From assembly GCA_039096225.1 (NCBI GenBank), contig JBBPEB010000007.1:186001-250000 (forward strand): a DNA stretch of 64,000 bases. Direction: 5' to 3'. The DNA comes from Blastocystis sp. Blastoise. Its lineage: Eukaryota > Sar > Bigyra > Opalinata > Blastocystidae. Position numbers and translations under genes: made by a program. Under the pieces are notes generated by a model, which did not search any database, was not told the DNA's origin, and worked only from the letters and a program-made list of their open reading frames with translations. Positions 1 through 50,780 of this stretch are shown one piece after another; position 1 is the stretch's first letter, and the number at the start of each line of letters is the position of its first letter.

Positions 1-9826
<9,826 letters not shown>

Positions 9827-11900: not shown

Positions 11901-12722
11901 ATGATAACAGCTTCATTCATTATATATTCACTTCCTATATATGTTAGAGAGTATATTGGACAAACTGATGAAAACTATTTCCATGATACTCATGAAAAAT
12001 ACTATATAAAAGATCTTTTATCAACCACTCATGTATTATTTCAGTTTTTATTAGATTTAAATATATTATATAGAATGGAAGAGCTCAAAAAGTAAGAGAA
12101 TACAAAAATTTCATTGACAAGATTCGTGATTCTGGTTATGATATATTTTTTATTATTGAAGGTATATTATATATATTATATATAAAAAAGTTATAGAAAT
12201 CGAAAAAAAACAGAAACCTTTCTATAATGGTACAACGAAAACTTTAAAAGAAATATCAATAAGTAAGTAATTTAATGATATGATATATGTTTGTTATGAT
12301 TATAGCAAGTGAATCACTTTCAAAACGGATTATAGAAGCTAGAAATGAATTATCATCATTGACAAGAGAAAGAATACAAATAACATGTAGACATGATGGT
12401 TATATATGCAGTATATATATACTATTTTATATATATACTATATATATTGTATTACTTTTGTTTATATACTATAGTAACATCAAAAAAAGAAACCCAAATA
12501 CTAACTAATTTTATTTCAGAAGAAAGAAATACAAATGTAAATGTGATTCCAGTTTTAAATTGTATATATATATATATATAACTATGTTCATTATTACTAC
12601 TAGTATTACTATCGTAAATAATATTACTATCATATATATTCTTCTAGCTAAAAATAGTTCAATAGACACAACAACTGATTTATCAATGGATAAAGATACC
12701 ATAAAGATAACTAACTATTTCC

Positions 12723-12762
<40 letters not shown>

Positions 12763-15402
12763 TCTAAGCAGACTAATAATCCTCTTTCACCTCAAATAAA
12801 TAAATCAAAAGAAGTAACTACTATGAAGTTAATGGCAATTTCTAGGTTTATTTCTGATTCATTTGCTTCTCTTCTTTTAACATCATCAACAACTATTGAT
12901 ACAATAGAAAAAATATATTCTCTTCTTCCATGTCAATATCAGGATTTAACAGTTTCATCTACTTTGGTTAACATAAATCATTCAGTTGAAACTAATCTTC
13001 AACATATAACAGATGAAAATTCTATTACTTCTGAAATTTCTGATAATAGCTTATACAACTACCCTATATTTACAATTAATGCTTCTCTTCATTATAGTGA
13101 TCAACTATTTAATACAATTCAAAATGTTATTGGTAATATATCTATTGATGATAAAAATACTTCTCTTTCTTCTTTAAATGAAAAATGGATAACCTATCTA
13201 AACAGTAACATAAGTACTATTATACAAATGATATCATATATTACTGATGATCTTCTATTTTATGATATAGAAACATATAAAAATCCAACTATTAAGAGTA
13301 TATTAAAACATAATGGAACATATAATAAATTTATATGTTATAATCAAAAGAACAAACGATGGTACTGTATCTCCTGTTTAATCTATTCAAATGATCCAAT
13401 GATACTAGGAAATAACTATACATATTCAACTATACAGAATCATATGAATACTGGTAACCATAGATCCTCAATGAAAATGTTTAGGAAATTATTGGATAAT
13501 TTAAAAAATAATCAAACACTTTTAGTTAGTCCATCAAATAGATGTGTTACTACGGATAATGTACGGATATGGAAATACTTTTTAAAAATATTTTATAATT
13601 GTATGTGTACATGTTTGAGTGATATTCATTCAATATATGGTACTACTACTCTTATATCTTCTCCTCATTGTGGTATGTTTATAACTCTTCTTAAACTTAC
13701 TGCAAAAAATGATCCTATCTTTTATCAGTTTTTGAATGAAAATTCAAAGATTTATCAATCAGTTAGATCAATTCAAAGATGGATTCCTTTAATTGTTTCA
13801 AATATGACTGATGTATTACGAAAAAGAATAGGAAATAATTTATTTAGTATTACTACTGATTCTACTACTTCACAAAATTTAGAAGAACTAGTAATAACTA
13901 TAAGATATACTGGTAAAGATTTTAGTATTCATCAATACTTTTTAAGTATTCTTGAAGAAACGTCACCTTCTGGAATTATTATATCAAGGTCTATTCTTAA
14001 TTGTCTAAAAAATTATAACTTCAATAAAAATAATATGTGTTGTGTATCTTTTGATAATTGTGTTTGTAACACTAGTTTGACAAATGGTATTATTACCAAT
14101 TTGTCATTAACTCCTAATTCTATTATTGGTTATGGCTGTAAGGTTCATCTTTTGAATTTAGCTTTAATAGACTTGCAAAATATATGTGTCGATTCTTCTT
14201 TTTATATTAATACTATTAGTGATGTAGCCTCAAGCTGGTCTCGATGTTCTAGATTACGAGTCATTATAAAAAACAATGGTTATAGTTCACATACACTTCC
14301 TCAAATATCCCAAACACGTTTTACTGCTCGTTATTTTTCTATACTACCTTATATTATATATCCAAAACAAACCCTTTGCAAGATATTTCTACTTTATTTT
14401 TATTCCTATAACAAAAATACTGTCTGTTTTAAAAATTGTGAAAAAATGTTGAAAATTCTTGGTGAAGTATCTTTTCATATTTATATAGAATGTTGGTTCT
14501 ATTTATTAAAAGTAATAAACGAAAGTTCATGTAAGCTTCAATCAGAAACATTAACAGTGTCAGAGGCACTGACTATTATAAACGATATGTTTGATAAACT
14601 ATCTTTACTATCTTCTCCTCAAATTATTTCAAAAATCTATAACAATTCTATAAAGAGAAGAGAGTATATATATAGTAAAATAACTTTATTGATTCATTGT
14701 CTTCAATCATATCATAATGATACAGAAAATAAGGAATGCATTAGTTCTATTCTTGGAGTTATGAAGAATTTTGATGAGTATGATAGTGAGTTTAATATTC
14801 ATATAAAAGATGATATTGATTTATATAATCTTGACGAAGATTCAAGTAATGAACAGGATGATTTATTATCTGATACGGATTCTTTAGATAGTAATATTTC
14901 TCCTGAATCAGATAAAAGCTCTTTCATTCGTACCTCATTATCCATTACTGAATCTATCGCATCCATTCTTAATTATAGAGATGAAACAGAAAGACAAAAC
15001 CTATTAAAAACATCTAAAATAAATGGTGTTGATTTTCCTAAAAGAAAGAAGTATTTATTTATATGTATAACATGATATGTATAAATAGTAATATATATAA
15101 TATAATATATAATATATACAATATAATATAAATATAATATAATATAATATAATATATAATATAATATATAATATAATATATAATATATACAAAATAATAT
15201 AAATATAATATAATATAATATATAATATAATATATAATATAATATATAATATATACAAAATAATATAAATATAATATAATATAATATATAATATAATATA
15301 ATATATAATATAATATATAATATATACATTTTTAGGCTAAAACAGAATGTATTAATAAATCATGATAATGATATTAATATGGCTCCTGTTTGTGATAATT
15401 AA
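11901..15402 (+). CDS. hAT-family transposase, N-terminal and catalytic part, with possible ERCC4-like leader
   Basis: Exons assembled by eye: 11901-12032, 12074-12161, 12197-12262, 12306-12398 or -12410, 12520-12561, 12648-12722, 12761-15050, 15336-15402. Every join keeps frame. The large exon holds a BED-like zinc finger (WYCISC then NHMNTGNH; Cys codons at 13366 and 13375). It then has the hAT/DUF4371-like catalytic start FSITTDSTTS (Asp codon 13858), the second Asp in VSFDNC (codon 14053) and the GCKVHLLNLAL motif. The usual C-terminal dimerisation segment is absent; the protein ends in an acidic/Ser region and KRKK. The upstream exons include GYDIFFIIEE and a helix-hairpin-helix-like stretch (MAISRFISDSFASLL) that recall MUS81/EME1-type proteins; that resemblance is weak. 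The start codon is uncertain. Confidence 0.6.
15075..15334. repeat. AT minisatellite inside an intron
   Basis: The last intron of the transposase gene (15051-15335) consists of TAATA/TATAA words organised in a higher-order unit of about 66-72 nt, marked by ACAAAATAATATAAATAT recurring near 15189 and 15255. Confidence 0.75.
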
Positions 15403-32581: not shown

Positions 32582-33737
32582 ATGTCAATTCAATGTATGA
32601 TATATACAATGACAATTAATTTTATTATTAGCAATTGTTATTGATAATGGGTCTGGGTTATGTAAGATCGGTTATTCTGGAGATGACGCTCCACGAAAAG
32701 TATTTCCTTGTGTTGTAGGACGTCCAAAGACTCCTGTTTATATGATAGGTATGGATTCAAAGGATCATTTTGTTGGAGATGAAGCTCAAAAAATGAGAGG
32801 TATTCTAGAGATGAGTCATCCTATTGAGCATGGTATGGTAACTAATTGGGATGATATGGAGAAATTATGGTATCATGCATTTTATAATGAGCTTCATGTT
32901 GCTCCTGATGAGCACCCTGTATTAATTACAGAGACTCCTATGAATTCGAAAGCGAATCGTGAGAAAATGACTCAAATTATGTTTGAATCATTTAATGTAC
33001 CTGCATTTTATACTAAAACTCAAGCAGTATTAGCTCTTTATGCTTCTGGACGAACTACTGCATGTGTGGTTGATTCTGGTGAAGGTGTAACACATATAGT
33101 ACCTATATATGAAGGTTATTCTCTTCCTCATGCTATAACACGTATTGATTTTGCTGGTAATGAATTAACAAAATATTTACAGACTTTAATGATTGAAAAA
33201 GGATATAATATGACATCAAATTCTGATATTGAGATTATTCGTGAAGTAAAAGAAAAGCTTTGTTATGTTGCTTTAGATTATTCTCTAGAATTAAAGAAAG
33301 CTTCTGAATCTTCTAATTTAGATAAATCTTATGAAATGCCTGATGGTAATATAGTTACATTAGATGATGAACGATTCCGTGTTCCTGAAATATTATTTAA
33401 TCCATCTCTTATAAATAGTGAATTTTCTGGTATACATAAAGCTACATTTGACTCTATTATTCGATCTGATTTAGATATACGTAGAGATTTATTTAATAAT
33501 GTAGTTTTATCTGGTGGTAATACTATGTTCCAAGGTATGGGTGAACGTATGCAAAAAGAACTTTCTTCTCTTGTTTCTTCTTCATTAAATGTCAAAGTAT
33601 TAGCATCTCCTGAACGTAAATATATGGTTTGGATTGGTGGTTCTATTTTATCTTCTTTATTTACATTTGCTTCTATGTGGATATCAAAAAGTGAATATGA
33701 TGAATCTGGTCCTTCTATTGTTCACAGAAAATGCTAA
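32582..33737 (+). CDS. Divergent actin paralogue
   Basis: Exon 1 (32582-32594) encodes MSIQ; the intron 32595-32631 is GT-AG at phase 1; exon 2 runs from 32632 to the stop ending at 33737, giving 372 residues. Nucleotide-binding loops are present ([48 protein letters not shown]), as is the conserved end [15 protein letters not shown]. It lacks the final Phe of ordinary actins and has many replacements in conserved positions, for example [10 protein letters not shown] where TTGxVMDSGDG is usual. It shares its intron position with the actin 1.3 kb downstream, so the two are tandem duplicates. It may form specialised filaments or be an actin-related protein. Confidence 0.9.
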
Positions 33738-35062: not shown

Positions 35063-36227
35063 ATGTCTGCTCAAGGTATGTTTATGATGATCTTTTGTAT
35101 ATGATGTTTTTTATATAGCTGTTGTCATTGATAATGGTTCCGGTATGTGTAAGGCCGGTTTTTCTGGAGATGATGCTCCTCGCGCTGTATTCCCCTCTAT
35201 TGTAGGTCGTCCTAAGAACCCTGTATATATGATTGGTATGGAAAATAAGGATCATTTCGTTGGTGATGAAGCTCAACGTATGAGAGGTGTTTTAACTATT
35301 AAATATCCTATTGAACATGGTATCGTTACTAACTGGGATGATATGGAAAAGATTTGGCATCATACTTTCTATAATGAACTTCGTGTTGCTCCTGATGAGC
35401 ATCCTGTTCTTCTTACTGAAGCTCCTATGAATCCTAAGGCTAATCGTGAAAAGATGACTCAAATTATGTTTGAAACTTTCAATGTACCTGCTATGTATGT
35501 ACAAATTCAAGCTATTCTTTCTCTTTATGCTTCTGGTCGTACTACTGGTTGTGTCATGGATTCTGGTGATGGTGTTTCTCACACTGTACCTATTTATGAA
35601 GGTTATTCTCTTCCTCATGCTATTCTTCGTCTTGATCTTGCTGGTCGTGATTTAACTGATTACATGCAAACTATTCTTGCTGAAAGAGGATATACTTTTA
35701 CTACTTCTGCTGAACGTGAAATTGTTCGTGATATGAAAGAAAAACTTTGTTATGTTGCTTTAGATTATCAAGAAGAATTAAAGAAAGCTTCTGAATCTTC
35801 TAGCTTAGAAAAATCTTATGAAATGCCTGATGGTAATATTGTTACTATTGGTGATGAAAGATTCCGTGTTCCTGAAGTATTATTCCAACCTAGTATTATG
35901 GGTCGTGAACTTCGTGGTATTCATACTGCTACTTTTGATACTATTATGAAATCTGATGTTGATATTCGTAAAGATTTATTCGCTAATATTGTTTTATCTG
36001 GTGGTACTACTATGTTCCAAGGTATTGGTGAACGTATGCAAAAAGAACTTTCTTCTCTTGCTCCTGCTACCGTTAAGGTTAATGTTGTTGTTACTCCTGA
36101 ACGTAAATACATGGTTTGGATTGGTGGTTCTTTCTTATGTTCTCTTTCTTCTTTCAATAGTTATTGGATTACTAAGAGTGAATATGATGAATCTGGTCCT
36201 TCTATTGTTCACAGAAAATGCTTCTAA
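35063..36227 (+). CDS. Actin
   Basis: Exon 1 (35063-35075) encodes MSAQ, intron 35076-35118 is GT-AG at phase 1, exon 2 runs from 35119 to the stop at 36227: 373 residues. Actin motifs run throughout: [77 protein letters not shown] and the C-terminus [11 protein letters not shown]. It is the better conserved of the two actins, and its codons (GGT, CGT, GCT, frequent C endings) suggest strong expression. The DNase-I-binding loop region reads [20 protein letters not shown], unlike the usual [20 protein letters not shown], and the same unusual pattern occurs in the upstream paralogue. It builds the actin cytoskeleton. Confidence 0.97.
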
Positions 36228-45446: not shown

Positions 45447-45508
<62 letters not shown>

Positions 45509-45801
45509 CTGTTGCTGATATTCTCTTTGGTGATTATAACCCCGCTGGTCGTCTTCCTTATACTATTCTTAAGGACGATAAATATATTCTTCCTAATACT
45601 GTATATATATATATTATTATTTATTAATTATATTCTTTCATTAATAATTAAACTTGATATATATATACATAGGATTATGATTTCATTAGTACTCCTGGTC
45701 GTACCTATAAATATTTTAAGGGAGAAATTCAATTCCCCTTCGGTTATGGTCTCTCTTATTCTACTTTCCAATATACGTATATATATATATTATTATTATT
45801 A

Positions 45802-45860
<59 letters not shown>

Positions 45861-46273
45861 CTTCTGCAAGTGTTTCAAAAGCAATTATATCTCCTTGTGA
45901 TGATATTACTATTAAAGCTACTATTACTAATCTTGGTCCTTTTGATGGTGATGAAGTAATTCAAGTATATGTTTCTTCTCCTCAAACTACCTATGTTACT
46001 CCTATTCATCAACTTATGGGTTTTGAGCGTGTTACTATAAAGAATGGTGATTCTTATGCTTTCTCTTATACATTATCTGGTATTAAATATTCTGTTGTTA
46101 ATTTGGAGGGAAAGAGAGTATTTTTACCTGGAACTTATACCATATATATTGGTGGAGGTCAACCTGGTTCTTCTTCTGGTACTTCAGTTCAATTTAATGT
46201 TATTGGTTCTCAAGAATTTGAATTAACTCAATGTCCTGAACATGTACCTCAATATTTCTGTATGGATTTTTAA
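42358..46273 (+). CDS. Secreted GH3 glycosidase, beta-xylosidase/beta-glucosidase type
   Basis: About 19 exons and roughly 765 residues; joins checked are GT-AG. A signal peptide ([21 protein letters not shown]) is followed by [20 protein letters not shown], the usual start of BXL-type GH3 enzymes. The N-terminal barrel has [35 protein letters not shown] and the region [11 protein letters not shown], where Asp is the expected nucleophile. The C-terminal sandwich has [26 protein letters not shown] and [13 protein letters not shown] fibronectin-III-like domain follows ([10 protein letters not shown] ... GTYTIYIGG). It would release sugars from plant or algal oligosaccharides. Unusual points: the helix after the signal reads TWSEAP and the nucleophile motif is SDNT instead of SDCG/SDWG, so substrate cannot be set. 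Introns include 42570-42612, 42737-42792, 43543-43774 and 45777-45870. Confidence 0.9.
43322..43386. repeat. (ATT)n microsatellite in a GH3 intron
   Basis: Pure ATT repeat between the donor after the CAKHFA exon and the acceptor before AHSGPEE. Confidence 0.95.
43562..43760. repeat. (ATT)n microsatellite in a GH3 intron
   Basis: ATT repeat with a few TTA-ATT breaks fills the intron 43543-43774. Confidence 0.9.
44767..44846. repeat. (TA)n microsatellite in a GH3 intron
   Basis: About 40 TA units begin at the donor itself, so the 5' splice site is the first GT of GTATATAT. Confidence 0.95.
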
Positions 46274-46705: not shown

Positions 46706-47254
46706 ATGAAGATTTATTTCTTACTACTCTTTTTGTTATTTATCACAGAATGTGTTGCTATTCGTCGTTCAGTTCTACATACTTCAGAAAATATATTTCG
46801 TAGAGAATCTCAAAACAAGAATTTCTACACAGAAAAGGACGTATTATCGGATTTCACAAGATATACAAGTACATTATTCACAAATATTTCTTTAGATTAT
46901 CAAAAAGAAGAGCTTGATGTATGCTACAAGGTTTAGATATCACTTATATTGTATAGATACTGAATAATAAACAATCAAGAAAACTGACTTCATCAAATTC
47001 TCATTCTTTTGGACAATTTATTACAGTTATAGATCACTCTACAGACATAGCAAACTTATATGATGCTATTAGAAAACATGAAACGCTATTCAAAATGCAT
47101 TTCATCGGAAAATCAGATAGGATCGCTATCATTGAAGGTTACACTGACGATATAGAATCCTATCTTCTCAATAATCATTATATTCAAAAATATATAGAGA
47201 TACCACCTCTTTCAAAAGTATTTTTTTTGATTTATTTATAATGATAATAATAAT

Positions 47255-47293
<39 letters not shown>

Positions 47294-47442
47294 TTAGTAA
47301 CACATTTTCTTCAGATTCATTTAATGGGAATATTACTCTAATTTCATATTTTTCTTCCTTATTAAATATAAAGGATACTATAAAAACATCTGTTGATACG
47401 ATTCAATCATTTATTAATATATCCTGATTTATTTAAGTAATT

Positions 47443-47479
<37 letters not shown>

Positions 47480-47895
47480 ATGTATTTTATTGTATTTGCT
47501 ATTGTAATTATTATTATTATTTATATATATCCTTAATAATATACTCTTTGAGTTCATTATATTTCCCTTCATTTTCTTCTCTTTCTAATGAACTTCATCA
47601 ATATATTACTCTATTTTCCAATAATAATCGCGGGAATATCGTAAACTTATTAAAAGATATATATATTAAAAAACAATCATTTTCAAATTCTTTACATATC
47701 CTTATTATATATAATAATGATAATTATTGTTCGTATTATAAAAATGTATTATATATATATATATATTCCTTTATTTTTTACATCCCTATATATCCATGAC
47801 TTATGAAGGCTTTCATTTAAAAATAACTACAGATTCCCACGGGATTGTTCCTATATTAGCCTATTTGTCCTTACAACCTTATATTATGTCTATTA

Positions 47896-47985
<90 letters not shown>

Positions 47986-48067
47986 ATATATATAGGTAGA
48001 TATGAGCCAATAACCTTTGTTGATGAAATGAAAGAATTAAATAATAATGAAATCGATATAGATAAAC

Positions 48068-48118
<51 letters not shown>

Positions 48119-48242
48119 TATATAATTATATAATTATTTATTATATATATATATATGTAGGAAGACGTTTAAATGATCGTGTAAAGTATATAATAACCGC
48201 GGGACAAACGATAAAATCTGAAATCTATGAAAGAGGACTCAG

Positions 48243-48282
<40 letters not shown>

Positions 48283-48318
48283 GATGGAACTGGTCAAGTA
48301 ATTTGTGTTGCAGATACA

Positions 48319-48368
<50 letters not shown>

Positions 48369-50780
48369 TGTGGACACGAATCATTGTTTATTTTTTGATC
48401 CGTTAAATGACGTTATATATGGGAACACAAATCCAAATACGAAACATAGAAAAGTTATTCTGTATATATATTTATATTACATTTACTTATATATATATAA
48501 ATATACATATAACTATTTATATATATAGATATACTGGATATGCAGATACCACTGAAAGAATGTATAATAACCACGGGACTCATGTTTCTGGGACTGCAGT
48601 TGGATATACCGACGGGGATCAATTTAAATATAACGGTGTCGCATATGGTGCCAAGTTATCTATGTTTGATATAGAAGATTCCCACGGGAATTTACTTATT
48701 CCTAATAATCTTCAAGAATATTATCAATTAGAGTATATATATATAAATAATCTAGTAGTATGTTATTTTTCTTTATATATATAGATATACATTAGGTGTT
48801 CGTATATTATCGAATAGTTGGGGAAAGAAAGAAAGTAATATATATACAGAAGATACTGCTTCTACTGATGAATATATTTATAATCATCCTGATATGGTTA
48901 TTATTTTTGCTGCTGCCAATTCTGGTGCTTCTGGGTATATAAATATATATATATTATTATTATTATTATTATAAAGACCTGGTCACATTAGTACGTTAGC
49001 TATTGGTAAGAATACTATTTCAGTTGGTTCAACGTATAATAGCGGTGAAGTTATTACAGAAGCTAAGTATATATATATACAAATATATATATATATATAT
49101 ATAGTGCATTTAATTATGTTCTTCCATCTTCTTCTTATGGAAATACTCTTGATAATCGAATAAAGCCTGATATATATACAGTCGGATCTCTTCGTTCTGC
49201 TGTCAGTAACTCAGAATGTGAAATTTCCAATAAACAAGGAACATATCCATATATATACATATACATATATATTGATTATATATTTTTTTTCATGTTTCTA
49301 ATTATTATTTTCATTTATTTTTTAAGGAATATATATATATATATATATATATTCCTTAATAGACTACGTCTATGGCGACTCCCGCCATTGCTGGCGCCAT
49401 TGCTATTATTCGACAGTATCTTATGGAGGGATATTATCCTGAAGGTATATATATATATAATATAAATGAATAAACATACAAATATATACATAAGTATTTA
49501 ATTTAAATATATAAAATATGAATTATATAAATAGAAATCTTTATATATTTCAAATTATATATATTTACATATATATTAATAGTAATATTAAACAATAATA
49601 TATATAGGTATTCCATCTTCTTCTTCTTCTCTTTCTCCTTCTGCTTCTCTATTAAAAGCCATGATTATTCACTCGGCAGTACCTCTAAAAGGAAAAGCCA
49701 CAACATATACGGTGAGTCCCGCGGTTATTTCATTTAATAAAACACCGAATTCTATGGGAGGATGGGGACGAGCACAATTAGATAGGTAATTATATATATA
49801 GTAATAATACTTATATATATAATAAAAATAGTATATATAATAATAATATATATAATATATATATAGAGTATTATTTCTTGCTAATTATACGCCATTTAAT
49901 TTATTTCTTGAGGATCAAATTGTTGGAAGAGAAAATGGAACTATTTTGTATACATTAGATATTGATGTATATATATATATATATATATAATATAATTAAA
50001 TATAAAAAGAATTCTTTAAATATAAATATAACATAAATCTATATAAATATAAAGAAATAACATTAAATATATATATATATATATATATATATAGCCTTCT
50101 TATGATTTACGTGTTACGCTCACGTGGACAGACCCCCCTGCGTCATCTCTATCAACCAATAATCTTATTAATGATTTAGATTTATATATCATTATACAAA
50201 ATAATACTCTCTATAGCAATTCGTATATATATATTTATATATATATATATACAATTATCTTTAAATGATTATAATATATATTTACTATAGATATAGTCAC
50301 TATTACAATTATATATAATATATAATACATATTTATTTATATAATTTATATATAGATTACCTTATTTTGATCGTAATAATAATATTGAAACAATTTCTAT
50401 TTTTGCAAATGATTTAAATAAATATATAAATAATAATTCGAATCATGTTAATATAACTATTTATGTAAAAGCATTTATGCTTTCTACTTCTTCACAAGTA
50501 TATAAATATATATATAATAATAAGTATAATAATAATATATTTTCATTAATTTTAAACTTCAATAAGTTATCTGTTCATATTATGTATATATTATATATTA
50601 TAATAATAATACTATACTATTATATAGTCTTACTCAATAGTATTAACAGGTAGATTTGAAAATGGATTTCAGCATTATACTGAACAAACTGAAATTCTAG
50701 ATTTCTCTTATTCTTCAACACTATTTTCTTCTATTCTTCTTATTCTTCTATCCTTTGCTTTCATTTTATTTTCATTCTAG
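46706..50780 (+). CDS. Secreted/membrane-anchored subtilisin-like serine protease (S8)
   Basis: A signal peptide ([18 protein letters not shown]) starts the protein; a hydrophobic C-terminus ([18 protein letters not shown]) suggests a membrane or GPI anchor. A long propeptide comes first, with basic DKRRRLNDR. The triad is visible: Asp in [13 protein letters not shown], His in [13 protein letters not shown], Ser in [11 protein letters not shown]; the oxyanion Asn is in [20 protein letters not shown] before the His block is typical of the tagB/C-like group of subtilases. Early exons: 46706-46918, 46957-47217, 47293-47418, 47545-47695, 47782-47900, 47996-48067, 48161-48241, 48284-48319, 48368 onward. 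Frame continuity requires three AT-AC introns and one GC-AG intron, listed separately; with them no stop or shift remains in the parts checked. The later half is a beta-rich C-terminal domain ([20 protein letters not shown]). It would digest proteins at the surface or in a secretory compartment. Confidence 0.88.
47419..47544 (+). other. AT-AC (U12-like) intron 1 of subtilase
   Basis: Starts ATATCCTGA and ends TCCTTAATAATATAC. Without removal the exon runs into TGA at 47425. Removal joins ...DTIQSFIN to [10 protein letters not shown] at phase 0 on both sides. Donor and the TCCTTAA branch-like element about ten bases before the AC end match the U12 type. Confidence 0.75.
47696..47781 (+). other. 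AT-AC (U12-like) intron 2 of subtilase
   Basis: Starts ATATCCTTA, a close match to the U12 donor ATATCCTT, and ends TTCCTTTATTTTTTAC. Removal joins phase 1 to phase 1, giving [15 protein letters not shown]. No GT-AG choice in this stretch keeps the frame. Confidence 0.72.
47898..47983. repeat. (TA)n microsatellite in subtilase intron
   Basis: About 40 TA units filling the intron before [10 protein letters not shown]. Confidence 0.95.
48320..48367 (+). other. GC-AG intron of subtilase
   Basis: Exon ...GATACAG is followed by GCATATAT and an ATATAG acceptor; removal yields the exact subtilisin motif DTGVDTNH. The alternative is read-through, which stays open and would insert an (IY)n run next to the catalytic Asp. 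Confidence 0.55.
49243..49364 (+). other. AT-AC (U12-like) intron 3 of subtilase, with inverted-repeat end
   Basis: Starts ATATCCATA and ends TTCCTTAATAGAC. Removal joins KQGAC to TACGTCTATGG and restores GTTSMATP around the catalytic Ser. TTAAGGAAT at 49322 pairs with ATTCCTTAA at 49351 around a TA run, so the branch-like element is partly hidden in a hairpin. Because AC repeats at both ends, an AC-AG cut is formally possible. Confidence 0.65.

Follow-up and report, generated by a model that had tools for sequence, protein, structure and literature searches.

Three predicted U12-type AT-AC introns in a subtilase gene of Blastocystis sp. Blastoise, and an unusual U6atac in its genome

Three of the 18 introns in a subtilase gene of Blastocystis sp. 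Blastoise are, on the evidence of sequence, very probably U12-type introns with AT-AC ends, such that expression of an intact and probably secreted protease would call on both spliceosomes. We base this reading on the motifs of the three introns, the rarity of those motifs, the conserved residues that removal of the third intron restores by comparison with relatives, and the weakness of GT-AG alternatives. It draws further support from minor snRNA genes in the same genome, the pairing of U4atac with U6atac, an upstream element (ACTTCTAATCA) shared among the snRNA genes, a match to PF18036, and the U12-type introns already published for Blastocystis. That the gene is actually spliced in this way, and any regulatory use of such splicing, we infer. 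The window is the whole stretch of DNA that was analysed (64,000 nucleotides), and positions given without a contig or locus name refer to it.

The subtilase gene and its AT-AC introns

The gene begins with an ATG at 46706 and ends with a stop at 50780, and removal of its 18 introns (14 GT-AG, one GC-AG and three AT-AC) joins 19 coding exons into an open frame of 839 aa. Residues 345-641 match Pfam PF00082 (Peptidase_S8; E 6.1e-38), and the catalytic triad, D354, H402 and S582, is invariant in 16 of 16 aligned sequences, namely our model together with the deposited protein P0001 and 14 relatives, these 15 being drawn from 120 listed matches of the protein search. A preliminary description of this DNA had proposed that a conserved subtilase, including its catalytic Ser motif, is restored by splicing, which the open frame, the domain match and the triad bear out; its statement that the other introns are GT-AG with a single GC-AG exception is true within this gene. 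By eye, the N-terminus of the model is hydrophobic and signal-like. The intron that we judge least certain among the 18 would be a very short GT-AG intron of 26 bases (46931-46956), for which alternative borders are possible. The features on which the argument draws are as follows.

46706..50780, plus strand: S8 subtilase gene, from its open joined frame, PF00082 and invariant columns
47419..47544, plus strand: AT-AC intron 1, 126 bp, phase 0; ATATCCTGA at its start, TCCTTAA 8 bases from its end; in-frame TGA if retained
47530..47536, plus strand: intron 1 branch word TCCTTAA, pairing with the U12 core (duplexfold, -6.5 kcal/mol)
47696..47781, plus strand: AT-AC intron 2, 86 bp, phase 1; ATATCCTTA at its start, TTCCTTTA 8 bases from its end; frame break if retained
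47766..47773, plus strand: intron 2 branch word TTCCTTTA, with T at the usual R (-7.4 kcal/mol including flanking pairs)
48320..48367, plus strand: GC-AG intron, 48 bp, from the gene model
49243..49367, plus strand: AT-AC intron 3, 125 bp, phase 2; ATATCCATA at its start, TTCCTTAA 8 bases from its end; removal restores C573, G580 and GTSMATP
49352..49359, plus strand: intron 3 branch word TTCCTTAA (-8.5 kcal/mol including flanking pairs)
49368..49444, plus strand: exon with the catalytic Ser, starting within the Thr codon of GTSMATP, from the gene model and alignment

Directly upstream of the subtilase, at 45500-46273, lies the end of a gene with an Fn3-like domain (PF14310), presumably of the kind found in family 3 beta-glucosidases. 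Elsewhere in the window there are two adjacent actin genes on the same strand (32613-33737 and 35091-36227; PF00022, 437.9 and 451.6 bits), an open frame of 3033 codons (672-9773) that is rich in Asn and Ser and includes long runs of poly-Asn, and a 786-codon open frame that gives the impression of a hAT-like transposase (12715-15075), neither of the latter two matching Pfam at 0.001. The window yielded no Rfam match above gathering scores and no tRNA.

We compared the three introns with the U12-type consensus, in which the 5' site is RTATCC(TTT), the branch word TTCCTTRAY lies near the 3' end, and the intron ends in AC or AG, typically AC when it begins with AT. All three begin with ATATCC (followed by TT in intron 2 only), all three end in AC, and in each the U12-type branch word is exactly 8 bases from the end. 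The preliminary description had given the ATATCC starts and AC ends, which stand for all three introns apart from one border, 49364 for intron 3, which is better placed at 49367; the branch words it had placed near the intron ends were located as TCCTTAA, TTCCTTTA and TTCCTTAA. As it had also proposed, each intron removes a stop or a frame break: retention of intron 1 brings in a stop at aa 207, and retention of intron 2 or 3 shifts the frame, with stops at aa 289 and 664, respectively.

Conventional introns are poor substitutes. GT-AG and GC-AG alternatives were enumerated for each AT-AC intron over lengths of 24 to 700 bases, and within this range none kept the frame in place of intron 1 or of introns 1 and 2 jointly. 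The best replacement of intron 2 scored 1.5, against 12.5-27.4 for the U2-type introns of the gene, and the candidates for intron 3 fell far below the other introns as well, although the splice-site matrices behind these scores were trained on the introns of the same gene, as the motif rule below was derived from it, and their numbers therefore flatter the model somewhat. Because introns 1 and 2 interrupt an N-terminal part that is poorly conserved among relatives, their junctions rest on frame, motif and spacing rather than on aligned residues.

The junction of intron 3 can be set by comparison. Both candidate AC ends, 49364 and 49367, keep the frame, but the former yields GTTSMATP, whereas GTSMA is uninterrupted in 14 of 14 relatives. 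We prefer 49367 because it produces GTSMATP and gives the branch A the distance from the end, 8 bases, that introns 1 and 2 also have. It also restores C573 and G580, which precede the catalytic Ser and are kept in all 14 aligned relatives.

The combination of signals is rare in the sequence sampled. Under a strict rule, which was written after the introns had been seen (ATATCC, then TCCTT[AT]A, six bases and AC, with a total length of 60-160), the sense strand of the gene contains exactly the three introns, and a 200-kb sample of one contig contains a single match in its 400,000 strand-bases. Dinucleotide shuffles of the gene gave at least two matches in 0 of 2000 cases and one match in 4; when ATATCC was replaced by its permutations (n=89), three matches were never obtained and two were obtained once. 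A looser rule found nine matches on both strands of 264 kb, the two in the window being introns 1 and 3. Across the whole genome, loose intron patterns are as frequent as in the reversed control (16 vs 16 and 15 vs 15). Among 31 pattern matches, ATATCC is followed by TT in 18 (by eye), compared with 31 of the 213 ATATCC sites of the sample; four of the 31 are the same repeat in identical form, and another three stem from two similar places on contig C20, one of which was counted twice.

We viewed nine further candidate introns in context, four from the 31 pattern matches and five of the seven looser-rule sample candidates outside the window. Counted without a control set, four of the nine (L042, L043, L013 on the minus strand and L023 on the plus strand) connect frames that stay open for no fewer than 16 residues upstream and 29 downstream. 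Separately, four places (G000:C14:1239873, C24:60798, C24:722979 and C26:942086) share the same 46 bases, ATATCCCTC ... TTCCTTAATATATATAC, which resemble either a short AT-AC intron or a piece of a repeat; the context at C24:60798 contains no long joined frame.

Minor-spliceosome components and an unusual U6atac

Components of the minor spliceosome, whose complete absence the preliminary description had named as one observation that would refute it, are present in the genome: a search of 33.3 Mb in 34 contigs matched U11, U12, U4atac and U6atac as well as PF18036. U11 has one match of 62.9 bits (Rfam cut-off 39) and U6atac one of 63.8 bits (cut-off 33), with a second U6atac match of 18.4 bits located at the U6 gene, in a search in which no more than 46 of the 946 first candidates were scored. 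The single matches to U12 (46.8 bits) and U4atac (29.7 bits) fall below their cut-offs, both 53, and the U12 match contains the core AAACUAAUGAGUAAGGAAA. At a loose threshold, sub-cut-off matches also arose in prokaryote control genomes (U6atac in 8 of 14, U4atac and U11 in 1 of 14 each), none of those to U6atac or U11 above the cut-off. PF18036 (Ubiquitin_4), which we take to be the domain of the minor-spliceosome U11-25K protein, matched in two pieces of 24.2 and 20.3 bits, 45.9 together against a cut-off of 22.8, and in none of the 14 control genomes.

The weak U4atac match is supported by two features, an exact pairing with U6atac and a shared upstream element. Its CGUCCUUAUCG is the exact complement, over 11 bases of stem II, of CGAUAAGGACG in the genome's own U6atac; the computed U4atac/U6atac duplex reaches -36.5 kcal/mol, and stem II is better than 1000 of 1000 shuffles. 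The element ACTTCTAATCA is common to the U11, U12, U4atac, U6atac and U6 genes (loci L001-L005), starting 57-60 bases upstream of U11, U12 and U4atac and 64 bases upstream of U6 and U6atac, and is likely to be an snRNA promoter element. A pattern, CTTCTAATCANNATG, occurs seven times in the genome and once in the reversed control, and three of the seven occurrences are U11, U12 and U6atac.

The only U6atac found departs from the Rfam consensus within its element for pairing to the 5' splice site, reading AGCCGA instead of AAAGGA.

L002 1617..1501 (G000:C21:544821-544937), minus strand: U6atac, from its Rfam match, with the U4atac pairing and the upstream element in place

Positions 15-29 equal the Rfam consensus, positions 12-14 are GCC where the consensus has AAG, and positions 5-8 also differ. 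Computed pairing with ATATCCTTTA is -2.0 kcal/mol for this U6atac, compared with -6.4 for the Rfam-consensus U6atac and -5.8 for U11. With the actual 5' sites of introns 1, 2 and 3 the corresponding values are -0.4, -1.3 and +0.3 kcal/mol for the genome's own U6atac, -4.6, -5.4 and -3.4 for the consensus U6atac, and -3.5, -4.3 and -2.3 for the genome's own U11. Complementarity of U6atac to the 5' site, which is among the marks of U12-type introns, is not seen here, a shortfall that belongs to the snRNA of this genome and not to the introns.

The 5' sites do not seem to have adapted to the odd U6atac, judging from two counts: shifted sites, that is, ATATCG with a branch word, occur once against six times in the control (one length class), and TT is enriched after ATATCC, as noted above. 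Nor did searches of the assembly reveal a canonical second U6atac. Allowing at most three mismatches to AAAGGAGAGAAGGTTAGCA gave three matches, as in the control: the known gene, a candidate on C16 with AGGAGAGAAGGTTA, for which the surrounding 351 bases gave no match to Rfam up to E 10 and, by eye, no upstream element, and a further candidate at C21:193043. The exact core GAGAAGGTTAGCA occurs once, and once in the control. Either the odd U6atac would work with little pairing, or it would pair in some other way, or a canonical gene would have been missed or lie outside the assembly.

Proposed splicing and rival explanations

In minor introns the order in which U11, U12 and U6atac act is established. 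For the three introns of the subtilase gene, U11 would read the 5' site by AUAAAGG against a CCUUUA-like sequence, U12 would read the branch word by AAGGA against UCCUU, and U4atac/U6atac would then take the place of U11 for catalysis. The remaining 15 introns would be removed by the major spliceosome; with introns of both kinds in one transcript, the mature subtilase mRNA would need both machines. We suggest, tentatively and as something rather less than an even chance, that the minor spliceosome of this organism operates with a U6atac that has lost the usual pairing to the 5' site, although its introns keep ATATCC(TTT), such that U11 alone selects the site and the hand-over involves hardly any U6atac helix or none, or an unfamiliar pairing. 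Such a U6atac would offer a natural test of the extent to which the minor spliceosome depends on pairing between U6atac and the 5' site.

The gene can be read without minor splicing by accepting the deposited protein, WA158_007058 (P0001, 568 aa), which is the best protein match (97% across the whole query region), shows none of the three AT-AC introns, and by eye differs from our model only around intron 3. That protein begins MTYEGF, directly after intron 2, and so lacks the signal-like start and all exons upstream; its translation implies, for the third gap, GT-AG splicing from 49202 to 49362, with splice sites that score -4.4 on the matrix from the gene's own introns, against the range of 12.5-27.4 given above. 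It reads SATTSMATP in place of the GTSMA that our model shares with all 14 relatives, without the Cys and Gly before the catalytic Ser that are kept in all of them. We consider it very improbable that the deposited model is right; it is what a gene caller without AT-AC introns would be expected to produce, and it leaves the public protein truncated, devoid of its start and of residues beside the catalytic Ser.

The remaining explanations accept the three stretches but assign them differently. The major (U2) spliceosome is responsible for excising some AT-AC introns, and AT-AC ends by themselves do not settle the class of an intron; the poor pairing of the genome's own U6atac with the three 5' sites fits such removal here, but the U12 5' hexamer together with the constant spacing of a U12-type branch word in three of three introns, and the minor snRNA genes in the genome, argue against it, leaving it in our estimation as improbable as the deposited model. 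Still less credible is a decaying pseudogene in which the three stretches are random insertions: each does contain a stop or a frame break, but apart from them the frame stays open through 839 aa and the catalytic residues are intact, and the stretches have three-part splice signals in common. We retain the reading of three U12-type introns in an intact gene.

Comparison with known U12-type introns

Our literature search found no paper on the Blastoise genome itself, and the sources below are cited from parts of their text. The ST1 intron survey among them is presumably the work of Larue and Roy 2023. U12-type introns in Blastocystis are already known: the available text of Gentekaki et al. 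2017 (PMC5608401) reports for ST1 346 such introns in 319 genes, the four minor snRNAs and all seven minor-specific proteins, and for ST7 also U12 introns and components, and published U12 introns of the genus appear again in the survey (PMC10639083), the available part of which counts 253 in ST1, 77% of them AT-AC, with a median of 39 bp. Because the introns and the full machinery have been published for ST1, the subtilase is a further example of something known; it brings with it a revised gene model and an unusual snRNA that deserves closer attention.

The density within one gene, which the preliminary description had called unusual, is uncommon but not extreme. With 346 minor introns among about 35,000, the published rate for ST1 (from the available text of PMC5608401) gives a probability of 7e-4 that at least three of 18 introns are minor; U12 introns are known to cluster in genes more than by chance, in 21 of 21 genomes tested according to the part available of PMC7367187. 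According to the accessible text of PMC6865273, most genes that contain minor introns have no more than one or two of them. The present case indicates that a single stramenopile gene, here one for a protease, can hold a dense set of minor introns.

As far as the cited portions of these sources extend, the Blastoise introns resemble those of ST1 in genus, AT-AC ends and the presence of all four minor snRNAs (PMC5608401), but the subtilase has three where affected ST1 genes have a mean of 1.08 (PMC5608401), and its AT-AC introns are 86-126 bp long with TA repeats, compared with the ST1 median of 39 bp (PMC10639083). With the clustered U12 introns described elsewhere (PMC7367187) the gene shares the presence of several per gene, the host here being a stramenopile subtilase. 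In human U6atac, mutation and suppression demonstrated base-pairing of G14 and G15 to C5 and C6 in the 5' splice site, per the cited portion of PMC4980772; the human and Blastoise U6atac have the U4atac pairing in common, and differ in that the latter carries GCC at positions 12-14, where the Rfam consensus has AAG.
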